A stretch of 64,000 nt of DNA, taken from positions 2,480,001 through 2,544,000 of the forward strand of contig NZ_LN868939.1 in assembly GCF_001182745.1 (NCBI RefSeq), read 5' to 3'. Below the pieces are notes generated by a model. The model was not told where the DNA came from and did not search any database. It was given only the letters and a program-made list of their open reading frames with translations. A program made the translations under genes and the position numbers. This DNA comes from Nocardia farcinica. Its GTDB lineage: Bacteria > Actinomycetota > Actinomycetes > Mycobacteriales > Mycobacteriaceae. This document shows, piece after piece, positions 28,222 through 58,291 of this stretch. The first letter of the stretch is position 1, and every line of letters begins with the position of its first letter.

Positions 28222-28302
28222 CGTGAACCTCCTGAGGCTGTGCTTCATCGCCCGAGCGGGACGCCCACGGGGGCCGGCGCGCCGTCGCATCGAGTGAGGC
28301 CG

Positions 28303-28320: not shown

Positions 28321-28437
28321 TCTCTCGCGGGGGTGAAATCGTCGGAAACCGCGAGCGACACGCCGAGAATCGACCGGCCGGGAAGGTTCCCGGTCTGCGT
28401 GCGAACGCCGGGCGGGCAGGCCGTAGGCTCGACCACT

Positions 28438-41680: not shown

Positions 41681-42056
41681 TCACGCGGTGAATCAGATGG
41701 TCGGATGCGGACCGGTATGTCCGTCGATCCGTATCCGACGTCTGACTTTCTGCCATTACGGCGTGCCCGCTAAGGCACCCTGAGTATATCGCCTGCGTCC
41801 GTTGGAGGGCTGAGAGACCGACCTGCGCCGGGCGTGCCTCGCGGCCCGGCACGGCCGGGTTCGGCTGACCGAATGGCTCAGTGGACTTCACCCTGCGCGT
41901 GCCGCCCAGCAGGGGGTCGGGGAACATCGGCGACAAAAGTCACGGTAAGACGTTGCCGCAAATAGCCGCACACTATGTGCGGCATCGCGGCGGCCGAGCT
42001 GGAGAAGCGGCCGAGCAGCCAGTGGTCGACTCGCGAAACTATGTGCGGTAGGACTC
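41681..42056. other. Intergenic region ending at the transposon; orphan recombination site
   Basis: No gene found in 376 bp. At 41954-42050 it contains a site built like the one in the tnpI leader: inverted half-sites TGCCGCAAATAG (41954-41965) and CTATGTGCGGCA (41973-41984), and a third half-site CTATGTGCGGTA (42039-42050) in direct orientation 66 bp from the second. The transposon inverted repeat starts six bases further on, where a recombinase gene would be expected. Confidence 0.6.
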
Positions 42057-42110
42057 GGGGTCCCGGTAGTAATGGCGCAAAAAACAACGAGGTTCGCGTA
42101 GCGCCTGGTC
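42057..42110 (+). repeat. Transposon left inverted repeat
   Basis: 54 bases starting GGGGTCCCGGTAGTAATGGC and ending GCGCCTGGTC; one mismatch (T versus C at the 11th base) to the reverse complement of 47828-47881. The GGGG start is typical of Tn3-family ends. Confidence 0.9.
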
Positions 42111-42206
42111 GGCGGTGATTTCTCGGTTCGGGCTGCTGGGGCCGGGGTGGTTGGTGCTTGGCTTGGCTGCCGATGAGGTTGGTCGGCGTTTTGGAGGCTG
42201 GGGTTC

Positions 42207-45200
42207 GTGGCGACGCGGGTATTCGCGGACGAGGAGTTGCAGCGCCTGCGGGAGTTCCCGGAGATCAGTCGTGAGGAGTTGTTCCGGTACTTCACGCTGA
42301 CCCCGGCGGATCTGGCGTTCGTTGCTCCGCAGGGCAGGGGCCCTGCGGTCCGTCTGGGCCTGGCGGTGGCGTTGTGCACCTTGCCGTGGCTGGGGTTCGT
42401 GCCGGACAAGGTGTCGTCGGCGCCGCCGGTGGCGGTGGCCCGGTTGGCGGATCAGCTGAATGTCGATGCGGTGCAGCTTCGTTCGTATGGCAAGCGGGCG
42501 CAGACGCGGACCGAGCATGTGCGGCTGGTGGCCCAGTATCTGGGGTGGCGGCCTGCCGGGTCGATGGAGTTGAAGGAGCTGGATGAGTTCCTTCTGGCGC
42601 GGGCGATGGAGCACGATTCGCCGACGCTGTTGTTCCGGCTGGCGTGTGAGTACCTGATCTCGGCGCGGGTGATCCGGCCGGGCCCGGACACGGTGGTCCG
42701 CCGGGTCGCGCATGCTCGCACGCAGGCGCAGCGGGAGACCTATGACCGGTTGGCGCGCGAGTTCACGCCGCAGCGGTGTAAGGAACTGGATGCGTTGCTG
42801 GTCGCCGACCCGTCTATCGGGATGTCGCGGTTGCGGTGGTTGTCGACCGGCCCGGTGGAGGCGTCGGCGACCGCGGTGAAGGCCGAGGTCGAGAAGCTGG
42901 TGTTCCTGCGCAACCTGGGCGCGGATGAGCTGGATATGTCGGTGCTGCCGGCGGAGCGGCGGCGGTTCCTGGCGACTGTGGGCCGACGCTTGACGGGCCA
43001 AGCCTTGGAACGCCGGGATCCGCAACGCCGCTACCCGATCCTGCTCACGGTGTTGGCTCAGTCGGCCACCGATGTGCTCGACGAGGTGGTGCAGCTGTTC
43101 GATCAGGCGATCTCGGCCAGGTTGAGCAAAGCCGAACGCCGGATGCGCGACGAGCTCGCCGAGCGCGGTAAGGCCGGAGAGGATCGGCAGGGGTTGCTCG
43201 ACGACTTGCTGGCCATCATCACCGACACGCAGATCCCTGACGAGGAGATCGGCGGCCTGATCCGGGGCGATCGGATCGGATGGGAGCGGTTGCGGGCCGC
43301 GGTCGCGCAGGCCAAACCTCGGCTGCCGCGCGATCACGGGCACCTGGCCGCTCTGGACAGCTCGTACTCCTATCTGCGGCAGTTCACCCCGCAGGTGCTG
43401 TCGACAGTCCGGTTCGCCGGCGGCACCGCGGCGATCGAGCTGCTGATCGGGGTGCACATGCTGCGGGAGCTGAATGCGACCGGTACCCGCAAGGTGCCCG
43501 ACGACGCGCCGACGGGGTTCGTGCCGACGAAGTGGCGCGGCTACCTCGACGAGGCCCGCAAAGCCGGCAACACCACCGCCTATCGGCACTACTGGGAGCT
43601 GTGCGTGCTGCTGGGGCTGCGGGACGGGTTGCGCAGCGGCGACGTGTTCGTGCCGGGGTCGCGCCGCTACGCCGACCCGGCCGCTTACCTGCTGACCCCG
43701 CAGGCGTGGGAGCCGCAGCGTGACGAGTTCTGCCGCCTGGTCGGCAAGTCCGCTGATCCGGCCCGCGCCCTGGCGACCGCCACCGACGAGCTGCACGACG
43801 CTATGAGCGAGTTGGAGAAGGTGCTCGCCGACGGCGACGGCCCGGTCCGTCTCGATGAGGCCGGTGACCTGGTGGTCTCGCCGCTGTCGGCAGAAGACGT
43901 TCCGGCCGAAGCGGTGGCGTTGAAGCAGGAGTTGACGGAGATGCTGCCGTTCGCGCCGATCGTGTCGCTGTTGATCGAGCTGGACAAACGCACCGGCTAC
44001 CTGGACTGCTTCACCCACGCCGGCGGTAAGCAGTCCCGCACCCCGGAGTTGAAGCGCAACCTCATCGCGGTGCTGCTGGCCTACTCCACCAACCTGGGTC
44101 TCACCCGTATGGCGGAGGCCTCCGGCATCTCCTACGACATCCTGGCCTGGACTTCGGAGTGGTATGTGCGGGAGGAGACGCTGCGGGCGGCGAACCTGAC
44201 GATCATCGACTACCACCAACGCCTGCCGCTGACCCCGATCTTCGGGGCCCCGGCACCCTGTCCTCCAGTGATGGGCAGCGGTTCCCGACCCGTGGCAAAT
44301 CGGTCACCGCCAGAGCGTTGAGCCGCTATTTCGCGAACGAAGGACTGAGCACGTATACCCATGTCACCGATCAGCACGCCACCTACGGCACGAAGGTCAT
44401 CGTCGCGACGAGACGTGAAGCTCACTACGTGCTGGACGAAATCCTCGGCAATGCAACGGATCTGCCGATCACCGAGCATGCGACCGACACGCACGGCGTC
44501 ACCCTGGTGAACTTCGGGCTGTTCGACCTGCTCGGGTTGCAGCTCTCGCCCCGCATCCGGGACCTGGGCCGGATCACCCTGTACCGGGCGGCGCCGCGAG
44601 CCCAGGTCGAGTCCGCGTTCCCGCACGCGGGCCCGCTTTTGACCCGGCGGTGCAATCTCGATCTGATCGCCGAGCACTACGACGACCTGCTCCGGCTGGC
44701 CGGGTCGCTGAAGTTCGGGCACGCCACCGCGTCGCTGCTGGTCGGCAAGCTGTCGGCGTCGGGCCGGCAGAACGCCCTCGCGGCGGCGCTCAAGGAGTAC
44801 GGGGCGCTGCGGCGCACGATCTACGCCGCCCGGTATCTGTCCGACCCGGGCTATCGACGCAAGATCTCCCGCCAGCTCAACAAGGGCGAATCCCTGCACG
44901 CGCTCCGCCGCGACCTGCTCTACGCGCATGAAGGAACCGTGCGCGCGAGGCACCTGGAGGGACAGACCGAACAGGCATGGTGCCTCACGTTGGCGACCAA
45001 CGCCGTCATCGCCTGGACCACAGAGTATTACGGTCTGGCGACCGAACAGATGCGGCGGGCCGGGCGGCGCATCGACGACGAGGTGCTGACGCACATCTCC
45101 CCGGCCCACAGCGAGAACATCAACTTCTTCGGCGCCATCGAGGTCGACATCGACGCCGAACTCGCCCAGCTCGGCCCCACCGGGTACCGGCCGCTGCGCG

Positions 45201-45220
45201 TGCGCGACACCCTGTTCTGA
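42207..45220 (+). pseudogene. tnpA: Tn3-family transposase TnpA, one frameshift
   Basis: Two frames together give a normal ~1000-residue Tn3 transposase. Frame A (GTG 42207 to 44321) runs from the DUF4158 N-terminal domain (ATRVFADEELQRLREFPEIS) to LTIIDYHQRLPLTPIFG. Frame B then continues GTLSSSDGQRFPTRGKSVTA to NFFGAIEVDIDAELAQLGPT and the stop at 45220. The switch, a -1 change, lies in the GGGGCCCCGG run near 44247-44256, just before the first catalytic Asp (in SSSDGQ); the second Asp and Glu follow in frame B. One added base restores the protein. It may be a sequencing error, a real inactivating mutation or, less likely, programmed frameshifting. Confidence 0.85.
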
Positions 45221-45273
45221 CCCGGGGGAAACCGAGAGACACCCAGCCGAGAGGATCCGGCGGCTGCGCGGCC

Positions 45274-45305
45274 TTGACCCTGTACTCGGGTACAGGGTTG
45301 AGAAT
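45274..45305 (+). promoter_or_regulatory. MerR-type operator-promoter
   Basis: TTGACC (-35, 45274-45279) and GAGAAT (-10, 45300-45305) are separated by 20 bp, the stretched spacing that MerR activators correct by DNA distortion. Between them is the dyad CCCTGTAC (45278-45285) / GTACAGGG (45290-45297), close to known mer operators. The merR ATG is six bases after the -10, so transcription and translation start together. Confidence 0.8.
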
Positions 45306-45311
45306 GTGTGC

Positions 45312-45713
45312 ATGCGGACCGGTGAGCTGGCAGCCAGGGCGGGGATCAACGCGCAGACCCTGCGCTATTACGAGCGCCGTGGTCTGCTCGCGCGACCGGC
45401 GCGGTCCCCGGCAGGCTACCGCAGCTACCCCGACGAGGCGGTCGCGGTGGTCAGGTTCGTCAAACGATCCCAGGAGCTGGGGTTCACCCTCGACGAGGTC
45501 GCCGAACTGCTGCGGCTGGCCGACGGCGGCCCCGACGACTGCGACACCGCCCGCGCACTGGCCGAGTCGAGGGTTGCCGAGCTGGAACGGCGTATCGCGG
45601 ACCTGCAGCGCATGCGCGGCTCGCTGGCAGAGTTGATCGCGACGTGCGAGCTGCCCCGCAACCGCCGGTCCTGTCCGATCCTGACCTCGCTGCACGAAGG
45701 AGACCACCCGTGA
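45312..45713 (+). CDS. merR: MerR-family Hg(II)-responsive regulator
   Basis: 133 residues from ATG 45312 (GTG 45306 is an alternative inside the promoter). N-terminal HTH and wing RTGELAARAGINAQTLRYYE / RRGLLARPARSPAGYRSY, then a long dimer helix. Cys77, Cys112 and Cys121 have exactly the 35 and 9 spacing of the Hg ligands Cys82, Cys117 and Cys126 in Tn501 MerR, so this is a mercury sensor rather than a generic MerR protein. Its stop overlaps the merB start (GTGA). Being in the same direction as merB, it is autoregulated through the dyad at 45278-45297. Confidence 0.9.
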   Translation: MRTGELAARAGINAQTLRYYERRGLLARPARSPAGYRSYPDEAVAVVRFVKRSQELGFTLDEVAELLRLADGGPDDCDTARALAESRVAELERRIADLQRMRGSLAELIATCELPRNRRSCPILTSLHEGDHP

Positions 45714-46711
45714 AACTGGAAATCCTCCAGGTCCCCGACTGCCCCAACGTGGCGGTACTCGAACAGCGCATCCGGCAGGCGACCGCCGGCCAGCCGGTGC
45801 AGCTCGAGATCACCCGCCGTGTGATTGACGATCCCGGCCGGGCCGCCACCGCGGGTATGACCGGATCACCCACCCTGCTGGTCGACGGCTGCGACCCGTT
45901 CGCAACGCCGGGCCAGGTCCCGAGCCTGTCGTGCCGCCTCTACCCCTCCGACACCGGGCGGCTCGACGGCGCACCCTCGGTCGCCGCGTTGCGCGCCGCG
46001 TTGCGGCTCGTCCCGGACGGCACCGCGGCACTCGGGGACGACACCGCATCCTCATGCTGCACCCCACCCGCCGCCGAATCTCCGGCAACAGTGCTCCGCG
46101 CCTGGCGCGCCGCCGCGCAACCGGCAGACCCCACCGAAAAGGCTGTGCACCAGGCGATCCTGCGTGCCTTCGCCACCGATGGGCAGGCGCCGACCGGTGA
46201 CGATCTGACCGAGATGGCCGCCGGGCCCGACGTGCCGGTCGAGCAGCTACTGCGCCGCCTGCACGACGCCGACATCGTCCGCCTCGACGCGACCGGGAGC
46301 ATCGCGGCGGCGTATCCATTCTCGGCCACACCGACGCCGCATCGAGTCCGGATCGCTGGTGGAGCCACGGTTTCGGCCATGTGCGCGGTCGACGCGCTCG
46401 GTATGGCCGCGATGCTCGACACGCCGGTGACGATCACCTCCGCCGACCCGGTGACCGCCGACCCGATCACGGTCACCGTTGACGGCGGGCACGTCACCGC
46501 CGACCCGGCCACCACGGTCGTCTTCGTCGGCGCACAGGCCGGCCCAGGCCCGTCCGCCGACACCTGCTGCCACTACCTCAACTTCTTCACCGACCGCGCC
46601 AGCGCCCAGGGCTGGGCAGACACCCACCCCGGCATCGGCGGCGTTATCGTCGAACTCCCCGACGCCCACCACCTCGGCACCACCATTTTCGGGCACCTGC
46701 TGCACAGCTGA
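45710..46711 (+). CDS. merB: Organomercurial lyase with N-terminal thioredoxin-like domain
   Basis: 333 residues from GTG 45710, ribosome site GAAGGAGACC. Residues 1-110 form a thioredoxin/glutaredoxin-like domain (KLEILQVPDCPNVAVLEQRI ... GMTGSPTLLVDGCDPFA). Residues 135-333 are MerB: catalytic Cys225 and Asp228 in SAMCAVDALGMAAML and the second Cys at 286/287 in SADTCCHYLNFF, plus AYPFSATPTPHRV before them. MerB cleaves the carbon-mercury bond and releases Hg(II). Usual MerB proteins are ~215 residues, so this is a fusion. No mercuric reductase (merA) or transporter gene is in the element; the product Hg(II) would need another sink. Confidence 0.88.
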   Translation: MKLEILQVPDCPNVAVLEQRIRQATAGQPVQLEITRRVIDDPGRAATAGMTGSPTLLVDGCDPFATPGQVPSLSCRLYPSDTGRLDGAPSVAALRAALRLVPDGTAALGDDTASSCCTPPAAESPATVLRAWRAAAQPADPTEKAVHQAILRAFATDGQAPTGDDLTEMAAGPDVPVEQLLRRLHDADIVRLDATGSIAAAYPFSATPTPHRVRIAGGATVSAMCAVDALGMAAMLDTPVTITSADPVTADPITVTVDGGHVTADPATTVVFVGAQAGPGPSADTCCHYLNFFTDRASAQGWADTHPGIGGVIVELPDAHHLGTTIFGHLLHS

Positions 46712-46723
46712 CCGCACCCGGGC

Positions 46724-46821
46724 GTGCCACGGATAACACCCTGTTATCTGTGGCACCATGAAACCCGGCCTGCGACGACTCCGCTCCGGCGGTGCGCGAA
46801 GCGGCCCTGTTATCTGTGGCA
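46724..46821 (+). promoter_or_regulatory. TnpI resolution site (inverted core plus direct half-site)
   Basis: Core half-sites GTGCCACGGATAAC (46724-46737) and GTTATCTGTGGCAC (46743-46756) are inverted with 13 of 14 bases matching and a 5-bp spacer. A 16-base exact copy of the right half-site region, CCTGTTATCTGTGGCA, recurs in direct orientation at 46806-46821 (first copy 46740-46755), 66 bp apart. This is the arrangement of the Tn4430 internal resolution site (IR core plus DR accessory). The recombinase ATG is 20 bp further on. Confidence 0.8.
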
Positions 46822-46841
46822 AGCAGGCCAGGGAGGTCACA

Positions 46842-47795
46842 ATGTTGTCGTCCGGGATCACCGTCCGCGCCGCCGGCGACGGCTTCCTCGACTCGATCCG
46901 CTCCCCGAACACCCGCCGCTCCTACGCCATCGCCGTCGATAAGACCACCGCCAGGCTCGGCGAGGCCCGGCCGCTGGCCAATGTCGCCGACGACGAGATC
47001 GGCGAAACCCTGGAAACTTTGTGGGGCGAGGCGGCGGTCAACACCTGGAACGCCCGCCGCGCCGCGGTCGCGTCTTGGCTGGCGTGGTGCCGCGAGCACG
47101 GACACCTCGCCCCGGCGGTCCCCGCGTGGGTGAAACGCTCCACCCCGCCGGACTCGGCCACCCCGGTGCGCTCGCGCACCGCGATCGACCGGCTCATCAC
47201 CCGCCGCGACATCGACCTGCGGGATAAGACGCTGTGGCGGATGCTCTACGAAACATGCGCCCGCACCGAGGAACTGCTCCAGGTCAACATCGAAGACCTC
47301 GACCTGGCCGGGCGGTGCTGCCCGGTGAAGTCCAAGGGCGCCAAGCCCCGCACCCGCCGCCGCGGCGCCGCCCATCACGAGTACGCGCACGAGCTCGTGT
47401 ACTGGGACGCGGGTACCGCCCGGCTCCTGCCACGCCTCACCAAGGGCCGCACCCGCGGACCGCTGTTCGTCACCCACCGCCGACCCGGACCCCGCAAAGC
47501 CGTCGCCGACCGCGACATCTGCCCCCACACCGGCCTGGCCAGGTTGTCCTACGGCCAGGCCCGCGCCCTGCTCGATGCCGCCACCGCCACCAACGGACCC
47601 GGCACCGGCTGGGACCTGCACGAACTCCGGCATTCTGGCCTGACGCATCTCGGCGAGGCCGGAGCCAGCCTGCTCGAGCTAATGGCCAAGTCCCGCCACC
47701 GCAAACCCGACAACCTGCGCCGCTACTTCAAACCCTCACCGGCGGCCATGCGCGGCATCACCAGCCTCCTCGGTCCCGACCGCGGCCACCGATAG
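46842..47795 (+). CDS. tnpI: TnpI-like tyrosine recombinase (transposon resolvase)
   Basis: 317 residues from ATG 46842 behind GGGAGGTCACA; the frame extends upstream through the resolution site and is not needed. N-terminal SAM-like domain ([20 protein letters not shown]) and catalytic domain with Arg141 (CARTEEL), Lys165, His260-X2-Arg263 ([10 protein letters not shown]), His286 (SRHRKPD) and nucleophile Tyr295 (NLRRYFKP). All six catalytic positions are present, so it should be active. It would resolve cointegrates at the site just upstream and may repress its own promoter there. The stop is 32 bp before the right inverted repeat. Confidence 0.85.
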
Positions 47796-47827
47796 CGGCC
47801 ACCAACAACGACTCGTCCGTCTACCCG

Positions 47828-47881
47828 GACCAGGCGCTACGCGAACCTCGTTGTTTTTTGCGCCATTACTGCCGGGACCCC
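47828..47881 (-). repeat. Transposon right inverted repeat
   Basis: Reverse complement of the left repeat over 54 bases with a single mismatch; read inward on the minus strand it starts GGGGTCCCGGCAGTAATGGC. It begins 32 bp after the tnpI-like stop codon. Confidence 0.9.
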
Positions 47882-47932
47882 TACTACCGTGAGCACGGGC
47901 GTGCCTTCCCGCCAGCGCGCCAACGCTGGTCT

Positions 47933-48006
47933 TGATCAGAATCCTGTGACTTCGTCGATCATCTTCCGGGAAGGCGCGCCCTCCCGGGATCCACAGGTTC
48001 TGATCA
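47933..48006. repeat. Nested imperfect palindrome
   Basis: Outer arms TGATCAGAATCCTGTG and CACAGGTTCTGATCA pair with one extra base; inside lies CCGGGAAGGCGCGCCCTCCCGG (47966-47987; one mismatch pair). It sits between the transposon and the end of the arsenic operon (minus strand), and could be its terminator or a remnant of another element. No gene fills 47882-48050. Confidence 0.5.
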
Positions 48007-48050
48007 TTGCTCGACGAGGGCTTCGCCGGTTCCAAGCCGACAGCGACCCG

Positions 48051-48485
48051 TCAGCGCGCCGCCGTTCCGGTCGTTGATGCTCGGGTGGTGAGCGCGACGG
48101 CGACGAGCAGCAGCGCCAGCATGACAGTGGCCAGGAGTAGCTGCGGGTGTAGGCCGAGGAGCAGGGGGTTGTCCGGTCGGGGTTTGTGCAAGGAGGTGCC
48201 GGGAAACAGTGGTGCAGCCAGCAGGCCCAGCCATGGCGTGGCCAGGATCGAGCAGGCCGTGATCACGGGTGTTCGTGCCCCGCTTCCGCGCTGCCACAGC
48301 AGGACCATCGCGATCACACTGAGCCCGACCGTGACGAGGATGTATTGGGCGGCATGGAGTTTCGCGTGTGGGGGCCATGCGTCGTCGCGCAGCTCGGACA
48401 GTGCTGCGGTGAGCGCTGTGGCTACGGCGACGTAGGTGACGAGAATGCGTGCAGTGCTGTGGTGACGGTTGCGCTGAGTGGTCAT
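48051..48485 (-). CDS. Hypothetical membrane protein at the end of the ars operon
   Basis: 144 residues, ATG 48485. Four hydrophobic segments: ILVTYVAVATALTAALSEL, AQYILVTVGLSVIAMVLLW, VITACSILATPWLGLLAAPL and LLLATVMLALLLVAVALTT. The loops contain HKPRPDNPLL. No family recognised. It lies 90 bp downstream of the last arsenate reductase gene in the same direction, so is likely the distal gene of the operon, but its role in arsenic resistance is only suggested by position. Confidence 0.55.
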   Translation of the reverse strand: MTTQRNRHHSTARILVTYVAVATALTAALSELRDDAWPPHAKLHAAQYILVTVGLSVIAMVLLWQRGSGARTPVITACSILATPWLGLLAAPLFPGTSLHKPRPDNPLLLGLHPQLLLATVMLALLLVAVALTTRASTTGTAAR

Positions 48486-48575
48486 CTCACGAGTTCCTAC
48501 AGCCCTGTAGTGGATCGGACTCCCGCCCGGAGGCCGGCAGCCGTGTGTGGCCGCGGCCTCCGGGCGGGGCGGGCC

Positions 48576-48986
48576 TCAGGCGCGCGCGGGCAGGAGTTCG
48601 GCGACGAGGGCTTCCACGCGAGCCTTGATTTCGTCGCGGATCGGCCGGACGGATTCGACTCCCTTGCCTGCGGGGTCTTCGAGCACCCAGTCGCGGTAGC
48701 TGACGCCGGGGAAGGTCGGGCAGGTGTCCCCGCAGCCCATGGTGATCACGACGTCGGAGGTTTCCACGGCGTCGTAGGTGAGGATCTTCGGGGTCTGGTC
48801 GGAGATGTCGATGCCGAGTTCGGCCATTGCCGCGACCGCGGCCGGGTTGATCTGATCGGCGGGTGCGCTGCCGGCGGAGCGGACCTCGATGGCGTCGCCG
48901 GCGAGGTGGGACAGGAATCCGGCGGCCATCTGGGAGCGTCCGGCGTTGTGGACGCAGACGAACAGGACGCTGGGCTTGGTGGTCAT
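48576..48986 (-). CDS. arsC: Arsenate reductase, LMW-phosphatase type
   Basis: 136 residues, ATG 48986. P-loop C11VHNAGR17S followed by SAGSAPADQINPAAVAAMAE and TMGCGDTCPTFPG with Cys85 and Cys89, giving the three redox Cys of thioredoxin-type ArsC. It reduces arsenate to arsenite. Separated by 15 bp from the longer arsenate reductase gene upstream on the same strand. A second ArsC in one operon suggests different thiol partners or sub-functionalisation. Confidence 0.92.
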   Translation of the reverse strand: MTTKPSVLFVCVHNAGRSQMAAGFLSHLAGDAIEVRSAGSAPADQINPAAVAAMAELGIDISDQTPKILTYDAVETSDVVITMGCGDTCPTFPGVSYRDWVLEDPAGKGVESVRPIRDEIKARVEALVAELLPARA

Positions 48987-49001
48987 GTGCGGGTGGGCCT
49001 T

Positions 49002-49661
49002 TCAGTGGGCGGGGAGGTCGAGTTCGGCGAGCAGGTATCGGACGCGGGTTTCGATCTCGTCGCGAATGGGGCGGATCGCGGCGAGGTCGAGGTCGGCGGG
49101 GTCGTCGATGTCCCATTCCTCATACCGGCGCCCCGGGTAGAGCGGGCAGGCATCACCGCAGCCCATCGTGATGACGACGTCGGCGGCCTGGATGATCTCC
49201 TCGGTCCAGGGCTTGGGGAACTCGGTGGTGATGTCGATGCCGACCTCGGCCATCGCGGCGATCGCGGCGGGATTGATTTCGTCGCCGGGTTCGCTGCCGC
49301 CGGACCACGCGACCGCGCGGTCCCCGGCAAGGTGGGTGAAGAACCCGAGGGCCATTTGGGAGCGTCCGGCGTTGTGGGTGCACAGGAACAGCACCGTGGG
49401 GGTGCCGGTGTGGGCTTTGCCTTCGACGCGGGCCAGGGCGTGCAGGCGTTGGCGGGCGAAGCGTTCGGCCAGCAGCGGCAGGTAGTTGACCACGGTCGCG
49501 CGTCCGGCGAACTGGTCGTAGGAGGAGTGCAGGAACCGCTCGATGGTCTCGACGCCGAAGGTTCCGTTGAACTCACGTTGCAAGTGGGTGGCCGCGGTTT
49601 TCAGCGCGAGTTGCTGGTCGATGGTCAGGTCGTGGCGGGTGTGGGAGGGGCTGTCGGTCAT
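49002..49661 (-). CDS. arsC: Arsenate reductase with N-terminal helical domain
   Basis: 219 residues, ATG 49661, overlapping the preceding stop by four bases. Residues 1-85 form an all-helical domain ([55 protein letters not shown]), the accessory domain seen in actinobacterial arsenate reductases. The catalytic domain carries C94THNAGR100, [20 protein letters not shown] and [13 protein letters not shown]. It likely couples to mycothiol or thioredoxin. Cytoplasmic. Confidence 0.9.
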
Positions 49662-50092: not shown

Positions 50093-51198
50093 CGCGGCGC
50101 CATCTCCCCGGTGCCCGACGCCGCCGCCGGGGAGATGGTGGCGGGGAAGCGTTTGCGCAGCGCGAGCGAGACGTAGACCAGTCCGACCAGGACGGGGACC
50201 TCGATGAGCGGGCCGACGACCCCGGCGAGGGCCTGGCCGGAGGTGGCGCCGTAGGTGGCGATGGCGACGGCGATGGCGAGTTCGAAGTTGTTGCCCGCGG
50301 CGGTGAACGCCAGGGTGGTGGTGCGCTCGTAGCCCAGACCCAGGACCGCGCCGAGGGCGTAGCCGCCGCCCCACATGATGGCGAAGTAGGCCAGCAGCGG
50401 GATCGCGATCCGCACGACATCGAGAGGATGGGAGGTGATCTGGTCGCCTTGCAGGGCGAACAGGATCACGATGGTGAACAGCAGCCCGTACAGGGCCCAG
50501 GGCCCGATCTTGGGCAGGAAGCTGGATTCGTACCAGGTACGGCCCTTGGCGCGTTCACCGAAGCGGCGGGTGAGGTACCCGGCCAGCAGCGGGATGCCGA
50601 GGAAGATCAGCACCGATTTCGCGATCTGCCACGGCGAGGTGTCGATCGTGGTTTGTTCCAGGCCGAGCCAGCCGGGCAGGACCGAGAGGTAGAACCAGCC
50701 GAGTCCGGCGAACATGATCACCTGGAAAACCGAGTTCAGCGCGACCAGCACGGCGGCGGCTTCGCGGTCGCCGCAGGCGAGGTCGTTCCAGATGATGACC
50801 ATGGCGATGCAGCGGGCAAGGCCGACGATGATCAGCCCGGTGCGGTACTCGGGCAGGTCCGGCAGCAGCAGCCAGGCCAGGGCGAACATCAGAGCCGGGC
50901 CGAGGATCCAGTTCAACAGCAGGGAGCTGAGCAGGAGTTTGCGGTCGCCGGTGACGGTGTCGAGGCGGTCGTAGCGGACCTTGGCCAGCACCGGGTACAT
51001 CATGATCAGCAGCCCGATCGCGATCGGCAGGCTGATGCCGTCGATCTCCACCGCCGACAGGGCATCGCCCAGGCCGGGGATCATGCGTCCGAGCAGCAGG
51101 CCGGCGGCCATGGCCACGCCGATCCAGACGGGCAGGAACCGGTCGAGGGTGGACAGTTTGGCGACCACGGCGGGTTGGTCGGTGGTGTTCACGCTCAT
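50089..51198 (-). CDS. arsB: Arsenite efflux transporter, ACR3 family
   Basis: 369 residues, ATG 51198 (the much longer upstream frame runs antisense to the restriction gene and is rejected). Ten membrane helices; ACR3 signatures are [18 protein letters not shown] with the essential Cys, [13 protein letters not shown], and [20 protein letters not shown] near the C terminus. It extrudes As(III)-thiol or arsenite with the membrane potential. The operon order arsR-acr3-arsC is standard for actinobacteria. Confidence 0.95.
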
Positions 51199-51572
51199 GC
51201 GGGGGCTCCGATCGCGGTGCCGCTCTCCACGAACAGGACTTCCGAAAGCCGTTGCAGCGCTTCGGGGACGACGCGGTAGTACACCCAAGAGGCGCGGCGT
51301 TCGCTGTCGAGCAGCCCGGCTTCGCGCAGCACCTTGAGGTGATGGGAGATGGTCGGCTGGGTCAACTCGATGCCCGCGGACAGGTCGCACACGCAGGCTT
51401 CCTGGCTCTCGCGCGAGGCGATGGCGCTGAGCAGTCGCAGCCGAACCGGGTCCGAGAGTGCTTTGAACACGCTGGCCAGCTCGACGGCGTGGGGTTCGGA
51501 CAGCGGCTCGCGCACCAGGGGCGCGGCCGAGCACGCCTGCACAGGCGTCACCACCAACTTCGACTTCGGCAT
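51195..51572 (-). CDS. arsR: ArsR/SmtB-family arsenic-responsive repressor
   Basis: 125 residues from ATG 51572. Winged helix with recognition helix TQPTISHHLKVLREAGLL (71-88); the As(III) motif is EACVCDLS with Cys60 and Cys62, and an additional Cys14 in the N-terminal arm. On the minus strand a CAATAT -10 (51584-51579) is six bases before the ATG, so translation is probably leaderless, and the AT-rich dyad at 51579-51597 (TATCGATATCGGTCAATATT) overlaps it as the likely operator. First gene of the ars operon. Confidence 0.92.
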   Translation of the reverse strand: MPKSKLVVTPVQACSAAPLVREPLSEPHAVELASVFKALSDPVRLRLLSAIASRESQEACVCDLSAGIELTQPTISHHLKVLREAGLLDSERRASWVYYRVVPEALQRLSEVLFVESGTAIGAPA

Positions 51573-51578
51573 ACGCCA

Positions 51579-51598
51579 ATATTGACCGATATCGATAC
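51579..51598 (-). promoter_or_regulatory. ars operator-promoter
   Basis: Minus-strand GTATCGATATCGGTCAATAT contains overlapping short dyads (TATCGATA and CAATATTG partly) and the -10 CAATAT ending seven bases before the arsR start. Position and composition fit an ArsR operator; the exact contacts cannot be read. Confidence 0.45.
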
Positions 51599-51897
51599 CG
51601 GGAGGCAAACGAACAGCCGGTGAACACCGGCCCGTCCGCCAGGGCTGCGGTTACCGGACCGGGGAGCGGCGTTCGAGCAGGATGGTGTCGTGCCAGACGC
51701 CGTCGCGCTGGGCGGTGCCGTTGCTGGCGGAGGACCTGCTGACGTCGGGCCACCCACCACTTGCGGCTTCGGACCCGAGGTTGCGCGGTACTGTGCCGTA
51801 TACCGTCCTGACCGCCTATGCCGCTCTGGCTGTGGGCGCGGGCCTGGGCAGGATGGTCGGGCTGGGTTTGTTGGCGTGGGGAAGGTGTGAGTGGGTT

Positions 51898-54800
51898 ATG
51901 GGTTCTGTTCACGAGGTCATCGAGGCGTTCCGGCAGGCGCCGTCGAACTCGGAGCGGGGCACCAAGTTCGAGCAGTTGATGGTCCGCTACTTCGAGTTGG
52001 ACCCGATGCTGGCCCAGCAGTACGACAAGGTGTGGCGGTGGACCGACTGGCCCGACCGGGCAGGAAAACCGGATACCGGGATCGATCTGGTCGCCCGGGA
52101 GCGTGATACCGGGGCGTTGACGGCGATCCAGTGCAAGTTTTACGAACCCACTCATGTGCTGGCCAAGGGCGATATCGACTCGTTCTTCACCGCTTCGGGG
52201 AAGAAGCCGTTCACCAACCGGGTGATCATCTCCACCACCGACCGGTGGGGCCGCAACGCCGAGGACGCCCTGCAGGATCAGACGATCCCGGTGCAGCGGA
52301 TCGGGCTGGCCGAGATCGCGGAGTCCCCGATCGACTGGGACATCGCCTGGCCGGCTGGTGAGCTGCAGGTCAGCCTGTCGGAGGCCAAGCGCCACGAGCC
52401 CCGCCTGCATCAGGCCCAGGCCATCGACGCCGTCTTCAACGGTTTCGCCGCCGGCCACGACCGGGGCAAGCTGATCATGGCGTGCGGGACCGGCAAGACG
52501 TTCACGGCGTTGAAGATCGCCGAACGCACCGCCGTCGAGAACGGCGGCAACGCGCGGATTCTGTTCGCGGTGCCGTCGATCTCGCTGCTGTCGCAAACGT
52601 TGCGGGAGTGGACGGCCCAGACCCAGCTGGATCTGCGGGCGTTCGCTGTGTGCTCGGACAATAAGGTCTCCCGCTCGGCCGAGGACGTCTCGGTCCACGA
52701 CGTCGCGATCCCGGTGACCACGAGCTCGGCGGTCCTGGCTGCGGAGATGGAGCGCCGCCGCCATGCGGCGGGGTTGACGGTGGTGTTCACCACCTACCAG
52801 TCCCTGCCCGCCGTGGCCGGCGCGCAGGCTGAGCATGGGGTGGAGCCGTTCGATCTGGTGATCTGCGACGAGGCGCACCGCACCACCGGTGTCACCCTGG
52901 TCGGCGATGACGAGTCGAACTTCGTGCGCGTGCACGACGGCGACTATCTGAAGGCGCAGCGGCGGCTGTATATGACGGCCACGCCGCGGATCTTCGACGA
53001 GACCGTCAAGGACAAGGCCGCCGAACATTCCGCGGAGCTGTCGTCGATGGACGACGAAACCCGCTACGGGCCCGAGTTCCACCGCCTGTCGTTCGGGGAA
53101 GCGGTCGAGCGGGGTTTGCTCACCGATTACAAGGTGATCGTGCTGACCGTCGACGAAGACCTCGTCGCCGCGCCCTTGCAGCAGCAGCTGGCCGGGCAGT
53201 TCAGCGAGCTGCGCCTCGATGACGCCTCCAAGATCGTCGGCTGCTGGAACGGGCTGGCCAAACGCGCCGGGAAAACCCCCGACGGGGTGGGGTTCCCGCC
53301 GGGGCAGCCGCCGATGAAGCGGGCCGTGGTGTTCGCCAAGGACATCGCCGCCTCCAAACAGGTCGCCGAAGTCTTCCCCGCGGTGGTGGATGCCTACCGG
53401 GAGCTGCTCGCCGACCGCGAGGACGACGGCCATGAGGTCGCATCAACCAACCTGGACCTGTCCTGCTCGGTTCACCATGTCGACGGCACGTTCAATGCGC
53501 TGCAGCGCAACGCCGAACTCGCCTGGTTGAAGGCGCCGGTGCCGGAGGGTGAGTGCCGGATCCTGACCAACGCTCGCTGCCTGTCCGAGGGCGTGGATGT
53601 GCCGGCGCTGGATGCGGTGATGTTCCTCAACCCCCGCAACTCCGTCGTCGACGTCGTGCAGTCCGTCGGGCGGGTGATGCGTAAGGCCGACGGCAAGGAC
53701 TACGGCTACATCATCCTGCCCGTCGCCGTGCCCGCCGGTGTCTCACCCGCGAAGGCCTTGTCGGACAACACCCGCTTCAAGGTGGTCTGGCAGGTCCTCA
53801 ACGCCCTGCGCGCCCACGACGACCGGTTCAACGCGATGGTCAACTCCATCGCCCTCAACACCAGCAGCGACGTCCAGAAAACCGGCAAAGGCAGCGACAT
53901 GCTGATGGGCGGGCACATCGGGCCCGTCACCGACGACCACGAAACTCTCTCCGACAGCACCACCAACCACGGCGACAACGCAGCGGAGGGGAGTCCGGCG
54001 CCGGACGAGGGTGCCCAGATGGCGCAGCAGATGGCGTTGTTCTCCCTGTCGGAATGGCAGGAAGCGATCGTGGCGCGCATCGTCGACAAGGTCGGCACCC
54101 GCGCCTACTGGGAAGACTGGGCCGCCGACGTCGCCGACATCGCCAACACCCTCATCACCCGCATCCGCGCCCTGCTCGCCGGCGCCTCCCCCGAGGTCGC
54201 CGCGGAGTTCGAGAAGTTCGTCCAAGGCCTGCGCGACAACCTCAACGACTCCATCAGCCGTGAGGACGCGATCAGCATGCTGGCCCAGCATCTGATCACC
54301 AAACCCGTCTTCGACGCCTTGTTCGCCGAGCACGACTTCGCCTCCCACAACCCGGTCTCCCGGGTGATGCAGGCCATGGTCGGCACCCTCGACGGCTCCG
54401 GCCTGGAAGCCGAAACCATCAAGCTCGAAGGGTTCTACGCCTCGGTGCGGGTCCGCGCCGCCGAGGTCACCACCGCCGACGGCAAGCAGAAGGTCATCGC
54501 CGAGCTCTACGAGAAGTTCTTCCGGCTGGGCTTCCGCAAACAATCCGAAGCCCTCGGCATCGTCTACACCCCCGTCGAGGTCGTCGACTTCATCCTCCAC
54601 GCCGCCGACCAAGCCTCCCGCGACGCGTTCGGGCGCGGCCTCACCGATCAAGACGTCCACATCCTCGACCCCTTCACCGGCACCGGCACCTTCCTGACCC
54701 GGCTACTGCAATCCGGACTCATCACCCCGAAGGATCTGGCCCGCAAATACGCTGGTGAGCTGCACGCCAACGAGATCATGCTCCTGGCCTACTACATCGC

Positions 54801-56859
54801 CGCGGTCAACATCGAAACCACCTACCACGCCCTCACCGGCAAAGAAGCAGCCGCCGAGTACAGCCCGTTCGAAGGCATCGTCCTCGCCGACACCTTCCAG
54901 ATCACCGAGAACGGCGACAGCCTGGATTCGATGATCTTCCCCCAGAACAACGAACGCATCACCCGCCAGAACGCCACCCCGATCAACGTCGTCATCGGCA
55001 ACCCGCCCTACTCGGTCGGGCAGAACTCCGCCAACGACCTCAACGCCAACATCTCCTACCCCACCCTCGACGCCCGGATCGCCGACACCTACGCCAAACA
55101 CTCCACAGCGACAAACAAGAACAGCCTCTACGACTCCTACCTGCGCGCCTTCCGATGGGCCACCGACCGCATCGGCAACAAAGGCATCGTCGCCTTCGTC
55201 TCCAACGGCGGCTGGATCGACGGCAACACCGCGGCGGGACTTCGCCTGTCGCTGGCCGACGAATACTCCCGCATCTACGTCTACAACCTGCGCGGCAACC
55301 AACGCACCGCGGGCGAACTGTCCCGTAAAGAGGGCGGCAAGATCTTCGGCTCCGGCAGCCGCAACACCGTTGCCATCTTCATCGGCATCAAGAACCCCGA
55401 CCACACCGGGCCCTGCGAGATCTACTACCGCGACATCGGCGACTACCTCACCCGCGAAGACAAACTTCGCATCATCGCCGAGGGCACCCTCACCAGCATC
55501 GACTGGCAGACCATCACCCCCAACACCCACGGCGACTGGGCCAACCAACGCAACGACGAGTACCAGGCCTGGCCAGCCATCGGGGAGAAAAACGCCTCCC
55601 GGGAACAGGTCACCGTCTTCTCCAACTTCTCCCGCGGGCTTGAGACGACCAGGGATGCGTGGGTGTACAACTACTCGCGTACCAATCTGGCCGCGAACGT
55701 GCAGCGGCTCATCGGCAACTACAACGACCAGCACATCCCGTTCGCTGACTACTGCCGTACCGCAGGGGTCACCCGGCCGAACGAAGCCGCCGTCACGGAC
55801 TACCTGACCGCCAACCCAACTGCAGCGCAGGCTGACTACATCAAGTGGTCGCGCAGTCTCCGCACCCACCTTGCCCGTCGCACGCAGGTCACATACCGGA
55901 CCGAAGGCCATACCGTCAGCCTCTACCGGCCTTTCGCTAAACAGCACACCTACTTCGACAAGCACCTCAACCATGAGCGGTCGCAGCTCCCGTCGATGTT
56001 CCCGACCCCGCATCACAAAAATCTTGGCTTTTACCAGGTGGGGAATGGCTCCGCTGTGCCGTTCTCGGTGCTCATGCTCAACATGCTTCCTGATCTCCAT
56101 GTCACAGGAGCGGGAAGCGGTGGTCAGTTCTTCCCCCGTTGGACCTACGAGAAGGTCGTCACCCCCGAGGGGGAGCTCGACTTCGGTGCCGCGACGAGCA
56201 GCGATATCGATGACTACGGCTTCCGCAGAATCGACAACATCACCGACGGGATCCTCAAGCTGTATCGCGATGCGCTCGACGACAAGGTCAGCAAGGATGA
56301 CATCTTCTACTACGTCTACGGCCAGCTCCACGATCCGACCTACCGGCAGACCTACGCCGCAGACCTGAAGAAGATGCTGCCGCACATCCCCACCCCGACC
56401 TCACGGGAGCGGTTCGAGCAACTCGCCGATGCCGGCCGCCAGCTGGCGGACCTGCACACCGGCTACGAGACCGTGGAGCCGTACAACCTCGACATACAGG
56501 TCAGAGCCGCTGATCCGGAAGATCGGCAGACGTGGCGGGTGTCGAAGATGAAGTGGGGCAAGAAGAAACATCCCGAGACCGGCAAGAACGTCGAGGACCG
56601 CACCACCATCGTGTACAACCCCAAGGTCACCATCACCGGCATCCCGGATGACGCCGACCGCTACGTGCTCGGATCCCGGTCGGCGTTGGCGTGGATCATC
56701 GAGCGCTACCAGGTCAAGACCGACCCGGCGTCGGGAATTGTCAACGATCCCAACGACTGGTGTGACGAACACGACGATCCAACTTACATCGTCGACCTGA
56801 TCAAACGGGTGACGACGGTCGCGGTCGAGACGATGAGGATCGTGGATTCGCTTGGGTGA
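51898..56859 (+). CDS. Type ISP restriction-modification enzyme (single polypeptide)
   Basis: 1653 residues from ATG 51898; the frame is open to 51682 but sequence similar to known enzymes begins here. Domains in order: Mrr-like nuclease with Asp63 (TGIDLVARE) and Gln78-Cys-Lys80 (IQCKFY); superfamily 2 translocase with ACGTGKT (195-201) and DEAH (324-327); a helical coupler; gamma-type N6-adenine methyltransferase with LDPFTGTGTFL (923-933) and NPPY (1035-1038); and a C-terminal target recognition domain. The layout and length are those of LlaBIII/LlaGI (about 1570). It methylates one DNA strand at an asymmetric site and cuts after head-to-head translocation. All catalytic motifs are intact. 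Confidence 0.92.
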   Translation: MGSVHEVIEAFRQAPSNSERGTKFEQLMVRYFELDPMLAQQYDKVWRWTDWPDRAGKPDTGIDLVARERDTGALTAIQCKFYEPTHVLAKGDIDSFFTASGKKPFTNRVIISTTDRWGRNAEDALQDQTIPVQRIGLAEIAESPIDWDIAWPAGELQVSLSEAKRHEPRLHQAQAIDAVFNGFAAGHDRGKLIMACGTGKTFTALKIAERTAVENGGNARILFAVPSISLLSQTLREWTAQTQLDLRAFAVCSDNKVSRSAEDVSVHDVAIPVTTSSAVLAAEMERRRHAAGLTVVFTTYQSLPAVAGAQAEHGVEPFDLVICDEAHRTTGVTLVGDDESNFVRVHDGDYLKAQRRLYMTATPRIFDETVKDKAAEHSAELSSMDDETRYGPEFHRLSFGEAVERGLLTDYKVIVLTVDEDLVAAPLQQQLAGQFSELRLDDASKIVGCWNGLAKRAGKTPDGVGFPPGQPPMKRAVVFAKDIAASKQVAEVFPAVVDAYRELLADREDDGHEVASTNLDLSCSVHHVDGTFNALQRNAELAWLKAPVPEGECRILTNARCLSEGVDVPALDAVMFLNPRNSVVDVVQSVGRVMRKADGKDYGYIILPVAVPAGVSPAKALSDNTRFKVVWQVLNALRAHDDRFNAMVNSIALNTSSDVQKTGKGSDMLMGGHIGPVTDDHETLSDSTTNHGDNAAEGSPAPDEGAQMAQQMALFSLSEWQEAIVARIVDKVGTRAYWEDWAADVADIANTLITRIRALLAGASPEVAAEFEKFVQGLRDNLNDSISREDAISMLAQHLITKPVFDALFAEHDFASHNPVSRVMQAMVGTLDGSGLEAETIKLEGFYASVRVRAAEVTTADGKQKVIAELYEKFFRLGFRKQSEALGIVYTPVEVVDFILHAADQASRDAFGRGLTDQDVHILDPFTGTGTFLTRLLQSGLITPKDLARKYAGELHANEIMLLAYYIAAVNIETTYHALTGKEAAAEYSPFEGIVLADTFQITENGDSLDSMIFPQNNERITRQNATPINVVIGNPPYSVGQNSANDLNANISYPTLDARIADTYAKHSTATNKNSLYDSYLRAFRWATDRIGNKGIVAFVSNGGWIDGNTAAGLRLSLADEYSRIYVYNLRGNQRTAGELSRKEGGKIFGSGSRNTVAIFIGIKNPDHTGPCEIYYRDIGDYLTREDKLRIIAEGTLTSIDWQTITPNTHGDWANQRNDEYQAWPAIGEKNASREQVTVFSNFSRGLETTRDAWVYNYSRTNLAANVQRLIGNYNDQHIPFADYCRTAGVTRPNEAAVTDYLTANPTAAQADYIKWSRSLRTHLARRTQVTYRTEGHTVSLYRPFAKQHTYFDKHLNHERSQLPSMFPTPHHKNLGFYQVGNGSAVPFSVLMLNMLPDLHVTGAGSGGQFFPRWTYEKVVTPEGELDFGAATSSDIDDYGFRRIDNITDGILKLYRDALDDKVSKDDIFYYVYGQLHDPTYRQTYAADLKKMLPHIPTPTSRERFEQLADAGRQLADLHTGYETVEPYNLDIQVRAADPEDRQTWRVSKMKWGKKKHPETGKNVEDRTTIVYNPKVTITGIPDDADRYVLGSRSALAWIIERYQVKTDPASGIVNDPNDWCDEHDDPTYIVDLIKRVTTVAVETMRIVDSLG

Positions 56860-56905
56860 GCGACACCGGAAACTACCGCCGCGGCGCCGGATCTCAGCCC
56901 GACAA

Positions 56906-56936
56906 GCCCCCGCCGTCAGTGTCCCGGCGGCGGGGC
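56906..56936 (+). terminator. Hairpin terminator after the restriction gene
   Basis: CCCCGCCG (56908-56915) pairs with CGGCGGGG (56928-56935), 12-base loop. It lies between the convergent stops at 56859 and 56941. Confidence 0.6.
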
Positions 56937-56940
56937 CCGC

Positions 56941-57192
56941 TCAGGACCGGAGGTATTCGCCAGTCAGACGCTGCAGTTCCTCTTCCGATACGGAGCTATC
57001 GTTGTCGAGCGCCTCGGTCACCAAGTCCAGGTCAGCGGTCAGTCTTTTGATTTCAGCTGGGGAGTGGATTCGGTTCGTCGAGCTGCCCGGAGCCACGGCG
57101 TAGGCCAGATCCTCCCGTGGGTCGCCACGACGTAGCACGCCGTCGATCGCTGTCTGGAGCTCGGCCAGGAGCTGTCGCCGTTCAGAGTTCAT
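56941..57192 (-). CDS. Hypothetical small protein next to the recombinase, 83 aa
   Basis: ATG 57192, 35 bp after the recombinase stop on the same strand. Helical, acidic: NSERRQLLAELQTAIDGVLR, a middle loop VAPGSSTNRIHS, then PAEIKRLTADLDLVTEALDN and VSEEELQRLTGEYLRS. Good amphipathic heptads suggest a helical hairpin or small dimer. No family recognised; perhaps an accessory (excisionase-like) factor by position, though no HTH is evident. Confidence 0.5.
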   Translation of the reverse strand: MNSERRQLLAELQTAIDGVLRRGDPREDLAYAVAPGSSTNRIHSPAEIKRLTADLDLVTEALDNDSSVSEEELQRLTGEYLRS

Positions 57193-57227
57193 CCGGCGAT
57201 GCTCCCATGGCCAGGCCGCGCCCGCAC

Positions 57228-58166
57228 TTATCGGCGGCTGGCATCGCGCCGGCGCCGGGCAGCGCGGATTTCGGTGTCGGCGACTTGGTCGGCGAGCAGG
57301 GCGTAGATCTGGGTGGTTTCGGTGGAGGCGTGGCCGAGGCGTTTGCGGACGACTTCGATGGAGACGCCGGCGTTGATGAGTTCGGTGGCGTGGGAGTGCC
57401 GGAGCTGGTGGATGTCGATGTCCACCCCGGCCGCGGCGCAGTAGCGGCTCCACCGGTGATGCGCCGCGGAGTAGGAGAGCGGGCCGCCGCGGCCGTTGAT
57501 GCTGGCGCGGAACATGGGTCCGGCGGTGTAGCCGGTGCGGTCGAGGTAGAGCCGGAGCATGGCGACGTAGCCGCGGTCGTCGAGCAGGACGGTGCGTACG
57601 GTGCCGCCCTTGCCGTGTAGCCGGACGTGTTCGTCGTCCAGCCGGAGGTCGAAGTCCTCGACATACAGCTCGCAGACCTCGCTGGCGCGGGCGCCGCAGA
57701 CGTAGGCGGTTTCGAACAGCACCCGGTCCCGCAGCACGTCGAGGGCGACATCTTTGCGGGGCCGGCGAGCGCAGATCGCGGCGAAGACCTTGGCGATGTC
57801 GGCCGCCGGGGCCGGGCGGGGCAGGGTCTTGGGGACGGTGATGGTGTCGACCTTGTCCATCGGATTCGCGGCCAGCAGGTCGTGGCGAACGGCCCACCGG
57901 CAGAACGCGGCGACCGCGGCCCGCTTGCGCTTGCGGGTTGCCGGCGCGAGATCCGCGATCCCCGACAGGAACCCGCGCACCGCCGCCACCGTCACGCCGT
58001 CGAGGCCGCCGTCGACGTGTTCGGCGAAGCCGGTGAGGTCGCCGCGGTAGGCGCGCAGGGTGTTGGTGGGCCGGTTGGCGTTGGCGAGGTCGGTGAGGAA
58101 CTGCTCGATGTGCACCGCCAAGGGCAGTGTCGTCTCGTCGTCGATGTCGGCCGTCTTCGCGCCCAT
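57228..58166 (-). CDS. Tyrosine recombinase, XerC/TnpI-like
   Basis: 312 residues, ATG 58166. N-terminal core-binding domain (VHIEQFLTDLANANRPTNTL / RAYRGDLTGFAEHV) and catalytic domain with Arg160 (CGARASEV), Lys186, His253-X2-Arg256 (IHQLRHSHA), His279 (LGHAS) and Tyr288 (TQIYALL). All residues for activity are present. Its leader has the same site architecture as the tnpI leader (58187-58291), so it probably acts as a resolvase/integrase at that site. No transposase or inverted repeat was found with it. It is the other candidate, besides tnpI, for island mobility. Confidence 0.88.
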   Translation of the reverse strand: MGAKTADIDDETTLPLAVHIEQFLTDLANANRPTNTLRAYRGDLTGFAEHVDGGLDGVTVAAVRGFLSGIADLAPATRKRKRAAVAAFCRWAVRHDLLAANPMDKVDTITVPKTLPRPAPAADIAKVFAAICARRPRKDVALDVLRDRVLFETAYVCGARASEVCELYVEDFDLRLDDEHVRLHGKGGTVRTVLLDDRGYVAMLRLYLDRTGYTAGPMFRASINGRGGPLSYSAAHHRWSRYCAAAGVDIDIHQLRHSHATELINAGVSIEVVRKRLGHASTETTQIYALLADQVADTEIRAARRRRDASRR

Positions 58167-58186
58167 TCCGCTCCCCTTCGCCGAGG

Positions 58187-58291
58187 TTGCCCGATAACCA
58201 GGAATCGAACGTCTCGCGGCGGGCGGTGTTGTGCCAGCTCGCCGGAACCGTTCAGGTCCTATCTTGCCCGATAACCGTAGTTATCAGGCAA
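58187..58291 (-). promoter_or_regulatory. Recombinase core site plus direct half-site
   Basis: Half-sites TTGCCCGATAAC (58264-58275) and GTTATCAGGCAA (58280-58291) are inverted (11 of 12 match, CGTA spacer). A direct copy TTGCCCGATAACC is at 58187-58199, 77 bp from 58264-58276 and 20 bp upstream of the recombinase ATG. The rest of 58167-58642 shows no gene. Confidence 0.75.

Follow-up and report, generated by a model that had tools for sequence, protein, structure and literature searches.

Candidate internal resolution sites of three TnpI-type tyrosine recombinases in a plasmid-like region of Nocardia farcinica

We analyzed a 64,000-nucleotide stretch of the Nocardia farcinica contig NZ_LN868939.1 (positions 2,480,001 to 2,544,000 of the forward strand, hereafter the window) that holds three repeat arrays of the same design. 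Site 1 lies in the leader of tnpI, the tyrosine recombinase gene of a Tn3-family mer transposon, site 2 in the leader of a second recombinase gene, rec2, and site 3 next to a Tn3-type end with no intact recombinase gene behind it. Judging from their anatomy and from the leaders of homologous recombinases, each of these arrays is very probably the internal resolution site (irs) of a different TnpI-type tyrosine recombinase, as part of modules carried on Tn3 elements and plasmids.

Anatomy of the three sites

All three sites consist of a core, in which two inverted arms of 11 to 12 bp (inverted repeats IR1 and IR2) flank a spacer of 6 to 7 bp, and of a copy of the right arm placed downstream in direct orientation (direct repeat DR2; Table 1). 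The distances from IR2 to DR2 differ by steps of 11 bp, and because of this the direct half-site lies on nearly the same helical face in the different distance classes, the drift being approximately 17 degrees per step for a DNA helix of about 10.5 bp per turn. A sequence-only reading of the window had proposed the three sites, and direct reading and measurement found each of them where it had been placed. We measured 9, 8 and 9 bp between the TAT trinucleotides, in agreement with the 8 to 9 bp proposed, and 20 bp between the end of the direct half-site and the ATG of both tnpI and rec2, as had been estimated. The core-to-direct distances of 66, 66 and 77 bp were right as values but had been misassigned: 77 bp is the distance in the rec2 leader and 66 bp that of the site without a recombinase. 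The three-part plan is also borne out, although a possible fourth element had been overlooked.

Table 1. Features of the window discussed in the text, in window coordinates
Feature	Position	Strand	Remarks
Tn3-type terminal inverted repeat	41912-41949	+	38 bp; 4 bp left of site 3 core
Site 3 core	41954-41984	+	IR1 41954-41965, 7-bp spacer, IR2 41973-41984; half-site CTATGTGCGGCA
Site 3 candidate DR1	41995-42006	+	22 bp from IR2, 44 bp before DR2; 6/12 matches
Site 3 direct half-site (DR2)	42039-42050	+	66 bp from IR2 (41973 to 42039); mer transposon begins 6 bp beyond
Tn3-family mer transposon	42057-47881	+	ends 42057-42110 and 47828-47881, 98% paired over 54 nt
tnpA, two overlapping open reading frames	42207-44321 and 44159-45220	+	inside the mer transposon
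Site 1 core	46725-46755	+	IR1 46725-46736, 7-bp spacer, IR2 46744-46755; half-site TTATCTGTGGCA
Site 1 candidate DR1	46766-46777	+	22 bp from IR2, 44 bp before DR2; weak, 5/12 matches
Site 1 direct half-site (DR2)	46810-46821	+	66 bp from IR2 (46744 to 46810)
tnpI	46842-47795	+	317-amino acid tyrosine recombinase; Pfam Phage_integrase, E 1.9e-10
Remnant of third TnpI-like recombinase gene	48006-48077	+	last 23 codons and stop; tblastn 65% over 23 amino acids, E 1.2e-6 in 501 bp
rec2	57228-58166	-	312 amino acids, Xer-like; in a block derived from a pNF2-like plasmid
Site 2 direct half-site (DR2)	58187-58197	-	77 bp from IR2 (58264 versus 58187)
Site 2 candidate DR1	58230-58241	-	33 bp from IR2, 44 bp before DR2; 6/12 matches
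Site 2 core	58264-58291	-	IR1 58281-58291, 6-bp spacer, IR2 58264-58274; half-site TTATCGGGCAA

The fourth element emerged when matches to the direct half-site were counted at each of up to 49 offsets inside the core-to-direct interval (excluding five loci for which anchoring failed). The best offset was 44 bp before DR2 in both distance classes, that is, 22 or 33 bp after the core. At this offset the 15 non-redundant sites of the 66-bp type had a mean of 5.1 matches out of 12 (z 3.6) and the 26 sites of the 77-bp type a mean of 4.2 (z 2.5), offset 57 being nearly equal in the latter (z 2.3). It is plausible from its position that this weak element is DR1, which would complete the IR1-IR2-DR1-DR2 plan that part of PMC7157771 gives for the irs of Tn4430. 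Alternatively, it may be the site of a host protein.

Both intact recombinases keep the residues typical of their family. In TnpI, R141, K165, H260, R263, H286 and Y295 (R, K, HxxR, H and Y) are invariant in all nine aligned proteins, and in the rec2 product the catalytic-type residues R160, K186, R256, H279 and Y288 are invariant in the six aligned rows, with the histidine of HxxR replaced by cysteine in one. We presume that these residues have the catalytic roles assigned to them in other tyrosine recombinases. The rec2 product is 99% identical over 300 amino acids to the copy encoded on the N. farcinica plasmid pNF2. We also considered that it might be a chromosomal XerC or XerD recombinase; its best NCBIfam scores were indeed to these two families, at 146.5 and 141.1 bits, respectively, far under the curated cut-offs of 335.15 and 329.6 bits, which speaks against this assignment.

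Spacing in the leaders of homologous recombinases

Conservation of the spacing in homologous leaders had been chosen beforehand as the test on which the proposal could fail, and the spacing proved to be conserved. Scanning 84,980 species genomes with the six-sequence rec2 alignment yielded 67 loci, of which the 48 with a match starting in the first 33 residues made up the leader set (the 19 later-starting loci were dropped). When core-to-direct distances of 35 to 140 bp were allowed, 23 of the 48 leaders scored at least 19 out of 22, and all 23 did so at 76 to 78 bp. Among 716 control pieces of 360 bp taken from the same loci, 17 reached a score of 19 and 2 a score of 20, at scattered distances of which two were 78 bp. 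With the distance restricted to 74 to 80 bp and the score to at least 18, sites were found in 28 of the 48 leaders (21 at exactly 77 bp) versus 13 of the 716 controls. In two more loci an intervening stretch separates the site from the gene, the core-to-direct distance being 78 bp in L038 (score 20) and 77 bp in L082 (score 19). Eight of the non-passing leaders show, by eye, a decayed site at 76 to 77 bp (L053, L054, L068, L078, L081, L086, L089 and L090). Plan and spacing are kept in relatives with as little as 42% protein identity, belonging to the Actinomycetota, Chloroflexota and Deinococcota, plus one metagenome-assembled genome labelled Deltaproteobacteria. Relatives on the Rhodococcus plasmid pRZP5 (76 bp) and the Deinococcus plasmid pDrdI (77 bp) have a different half-site, altered in all three copies. 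The half-site thus varies in step across the copies of one leader, being TTATCACAGGAA in the Rhodococcus and Deinococcus plasmids and TTATATGGCTA in L175, and such joint change should be expected of a protein-binding site that follows its recombinase.

A fixed distance was also found on the TnpI side, for which we assembled 24 leaders: 20 from TnpI relatives (the window, pNF2, seven genome loci and eleven from 166 plasmid records) and four from loci of the site 3 type. The distance was 66 bp in 17 of the 24, 67 and 68 bp once each, 78 bp in two (L032 and L167) and 88 bp in one (L105). As a forward test, 12 loci on viral contigs were fetched, and the eight in which the match reached the N-terminal part were scanned. 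All eight had a site, seven at 66 bp and one at 77 bp, with scores of 17 to 22; these eight loci form about three groups. The 77-bp locus uses an unrelated A+T-rich half-site, both repeats of which are perfect. L168 to L175 are contigs of the viral collection that carry a TnpI or rec2 relative together with its site. Among the genome loci, L181 has a site at 66 bp (score 21). In a tree of the recombinases, the rec2 clade stands apart from the TnpI clade, and the members with 78 and 88 bp are deep branches of the TnpI clade, so that few independent changes of distance are needed. Overall, the core-to-direct spacing was 66 to 68, 75 to 78 or 88 bp.

Several observations weigh against reading the sites as resolution sites of these recombinases. 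Eighteen of the 48 rec2 leaders failed, and L037, 95% identical in protein, has no site in its leader. The leaders of L037, L040, L066, L074 and L083 contained none of the exact half-site motifs searched, and no clear site was seen by eye in the Deinococcus loci L033 and L036. On the TnpI side, no convincing site was found by score in L164 and L153, the site of L184 (67 bp, score 16) is weak, and the TnpI relatives L186, L030 and L031 had no site by score, the start being uncertain in the last two. Several TnpI leaders score only 17 to 18, values also found among the controls, and the set includes near-duplicates; the support for these low-scoring leaders comes from the shared distance rather than from the score. 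The candidate DR1 is weak overall and fails in L085, L087 and L175. Finally, real DNA contains such arrays more often than shuffled DNA does. We scanned both strands of the 64-kb window for 11-bp inverted arms with at least 9 positions paired and a spacer of 4 to 10 bp, followed by a direct copy matching at least 10 of 11 positions at a distance of 35 to 140 bp (maximum sum 22). This returned 11 places, and only sites 1 to 3 reached a summed score of at least 20. Twelve dinucleotide shuffles gave 26 places in total (mean 2.2), with 4 at a sum of 20 (mean 0.33), so that chance as modelled by shuffling can be rejected (0.33 expected versus 3 observed at this sum). In 420,580 bp of real DNA from the 67 rec2 loci, outside the leader zone, 33 places were found, 11 of them at a sum of 20, which corresponds to 5.0 and 1.7 per 64 kb, respectively. 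Because real DNA gives 1.7 such places per 64 kb, three in one window are weak evidence and the summed score alone does not single out the three sites. The shuffles being too lenient, the case rests on the shared spacing and on the homologous leaders. The 11 control places at a sum of 20 have distances of 44, 45, 45, 48, 48, 61, 63, 75, 84, 100 and 108 bp, and it is the distances of all three sites in the window that recur in homologous leaders.

Site 3 and a third recombinase

Site 3 had been described as a site without a recombinase. No intact gene follows it, but its relatives identify it as the putative irs of a third TnpI-like recombinase, abutting a Tn3-type end, and a 3' stub of such a gene is found beyond the mer transposon, 124 bp from its right end. 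Of 150 genomes of the genus, nine contain the pattern CTATGTGCGGYA, 50 to 60 bases, CTATGTGCGGYA, and none contains the reversed control; in the viral contigs the pattern had no match. In L106 and L114 it lies immediately upstream of a TnpI-like gene, whose product in L114 has 312 amino acids and is 36% identical to the TnpI of the window and 29% identical to the rec2 product. No TnpI-like frame follows the pattern in L107, L108, L110 to L113 or contig C5 of the source genome. A 3' remnant of the third recombinase gene is also present in pNF2 (28136-28486), its translation being 85% identical to the L114 protein. Site 3 and the stub were likely once a single unit at this place, although the pNF2 copy, identical in the right half of the site, is not followed by a gene, and this counts against such a unit. 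The 124 bp between the mer transposon and the stub (47882-48005) gave no long match when compared with a stretch of pNF2.

It is scarcely credible that site 3 is instead a dif- or cer-like site used by the chromosomal XerC/XerD recombinases. This would account for the copy of site 3 on C5, in a genome that has no close TnpI homologue besides that of the window. Such a role does not fit the nearly palindromic core, accompanied at the TnpI spacing (66 bp, with a 7-bp spacer) by a third half-site of the same kind, nor the fact that sites of this type precede TnpI-like genes in L106, L114 and L156.

The Tn3-type end and site 3 recur together in other genomes of the genus. Searching with the pNF2 copy gave matches in 113 of 148 genomes, many of them to the flanking gene only; among the matches listed (four candidates were scored per genome), those spanning the inner end and the core came from at least 34 genomes. 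Many matches extend only as far as the core or the direct copy. The same border is seen when individual copies are compared. Beginning with the right arm of site 3, the window, pNF2 and C5 share 84 bp without a single difference, whereas in the 60 bp to the left identity falls to 77% between the window and pNF2, 65% between C5 and pNF2 and 48% between C5 and the window. L153 and pNF2 display the converse joint, sharing 97% on the left and 45% on the right. One-sided constraint would hardly account for the pattern in the window, pNF2 and C5, which fits exchange at the core. Homologous recombination is a possible source of these switches as well, and to that extent they speak less for a recombinase acting at the core. 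The right Tn3-type end of the site 3 element was not found in the window; candidates for it were read by eye in pNF2, L107 and L112. Inverted pairs of the Tn3-type end occur in L119, L150, L151, L152 and L155, where four transposase queries found no match, and only in L152 did the flanking five bases agree (GGCAC, by eye). At least one of these end-bounded stretches contains site 3, and some of the second ends keep a half-site-like stretch.

These observations also bear on whether the repeats are only operators, through which each recombinase represses itself via its own leader while recombination takes place elsewhere. In both leaders the direct copy stops 20 bp short of the start codon, which would suit an operator, and part of PMC7157771 reports that TnpI binding modulates tnpI and tnpA expression in Tn5401. 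We consider this explanation quite unlikely, since the majority of the Nocardia loci inspected, as well as pNF2, plasmid W6977 and C5, have no recombinase gene after site 3, which adjoins a Tn3-type end and is a point at which sequences switch. Regulation, including any autoregulation by these recombinases, may be an added role of the sites.

Setting, proposed function and known systems

The region around the sites is of plasmid origin in part. The window from 31 to 63 kb (31300-62800) is a pNF2-like plasmid mosaic within a 2.66-Mb contig of the 6.46-Mb genome, and around site 2 it is 97 to 98% identical to pNF2 over two long stretches. A second rec2 (90%), accompanied by a site of its own, is present on C5 (41,291 bp), as is the second copy of site 3. 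In the window, the neighbours of rec2 include a type ISP restriction gene as well as arsenic genes; no tnpA was seen among the surrounding open reading frames, and no Tn3-type ends were recognised. W6977 also has rec2 and its site, with no transposase listed. In addition, pNF2 holds a copy of site 2 without a recombinase (51997-52112, L007), which is inverted relative to the intact copy and has an intact core and a decayed direct half-site. No Tn3-type ends were recognised around this copy or in W6977. A plasmid-like block inside a 2.66-Mb contig, together with a recombinase whose best NCBIfam scores are to XerC/XerD, might suggest an integrating plasmid or island that uses the sites for attachment and rec2 as its integrase. 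This is very unlikely, because sites 2 and 3 are whole on the plasmids pNF2 and W6977 and relatives adjoin Tn3 transposases.

The association with Tn3 transposases supports the Tn4430-like logic that had been proposed for the sites. Not only does tnpI belong to a Tn3-family element, but a Tn3 transposase was found in the fetched flanks (at most approximately 4 kb per side) of 23 of the 67 rec2 relatives, which ties the rec2 clade to cointegrate resolution. In eight of these loci (L075, L077, L084 to L087, L089 and L099) the transposase gene is divergent and directly upstream of the site. Four of the TnpI loci on Streptomyces plasmids (L158, L159, L160 and L161) have a Tn3 transposase within 5 kb. 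Other plasmids carry the recombinase in a different setting. On the Rhodococcus plasmid pFAJ2600 (5.9 kb, whole) a TnpI relative and its site accompany replication and ParA genes and no transposase was found, and on pFP1 no Tn3 transposase was found in the 10.9 kb read, a ParA gene lying two genes on. The natural reading of these two relatives is that they would serve multimer resolution.

From the layout of the sites we infer how binding, synapsis and resolution would proceed. A pair of recombinase protomers on the inverted core would exchange strands in the 6- to 7-bp spacer. The direct half-site at 66 or 77 bp, and perhaps the weaker one 44 bp before it, would bind further protomers and, judging from reports on Tn4430, these would let two sites lying in the same orientation in one molecule form a productive complex. 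In this way tnpI and site 1 would resolve the cointegrates of the mer element. rec2 and site 2 would be a module of the same kind that has no transposase here; pNF2-like plasmids most likely keep it to resolve their multimers. The recombinase of site 3 would have been broken up, leaving only its 3' stub past the mer transposon. More broadly, and with more doubt than confidence, we can imagine a large and hardly described TnpI-type class whose spacing changes by helical turns (approximately 66, 77 and 88 bp), with cassettes of gene plus site moving among Tn3 transposons, plasmids and phage-like contigs. In such a class, recombinase-free copies at Tn3 ends might be crossover points used in trans, plasmids swapping their flanks exactly at the core, as is suggested by the mosaics at site 3.

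Among known systems, the closest likeness is to the TnpI/irs modules of Tn4430, Tn5401 and TnBth4 of Bacillus thuringiensis, in which, as part of PMC7157771 outlines, a tyrosine recombinase of a Tn3-family transposon has just upstream a site with an IR1-IR2 core and direct repeats; we liken them by this described layout alone. Unlike in the Bacillus elements, one direct repeat is strong here and at best one more is weak, and the sites are spread over Actinomycetota, Chloroflexota and Deinococcota and include some on plasmids that have no transposase nearby. Tn5401 is said in the same source to carry a copy of the DR2 site near each end, and some site 3 elements likewise keep a half-site-like stretch at their second end. 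The portion of that 2020 article (PMC7157771) dealing with TnpI derivatives counts only three among 190 Tn3 members. No Tn4430-like element was present among the 60 matches listed (of at least 5,000) for a Deinococcus transposase query. The site 3 element also resembles the Tn3-derived miniature elements (TIMEs) described in parts of PMC4133298 and PMC13367494, which have one or two Tn3-type ends and a resolution site and lack a transposase; it differs in carrying a putative TnpI-type irs, on which a tyrosine recombinase would act, in place of the res of a serine resolvase, and its second end in pNF2 was recognised by eye as a candidate only.

Plasmid multimers are resolved by systems such as Xer/cer, ResD/rfsF and Cre/loxP. 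The modules described here are like them in pairing a recombinase with a site on a plasmid, presumably for multimer resolution, and unlike them in having an accessory half-site of the same sequence at a fixed distance and relatives beside Tn3 transposases. No title or abstract opening in the open-licence full-text literature searched pointed to TnpI-type sites in Actinomycetota, and many of the recombinases found here are annotated merely as 'site-specific integrase' or 'tyrosine-type recombinase/integrase'. A core and a direct half-site approximately 66, 77 or 88 bp apart upstream of the gene provide a simple sequence test for such recombinases, and the conserved distances make this little-described class of resolution systems easy to recognise. 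The natural spacing variants offer a way to distinguish helical phase from length in the choice of site pairs.

The mer transposon itself shows possible signs of rearrangement. No target duplication was found, and because the flanking 5-mers differ (GACTC and TACTA), an adjacent deletion or rearrangement is likely. Its transposase is split into two overlapping frames (42207-45220), so that the element may depend on another transposase. Besides tnpI, its cargo comprises a MerR regulator (merR) and an alkylmercury lyase (merB). The frame at 45713-46708 encodes an alkylmercury lyase domain (residues 203-327) after an N-terminal stretch (residues 3-96) with a below-cut-off match to a DF family (seleno)protein model, and its product is possibly a fusion protein.

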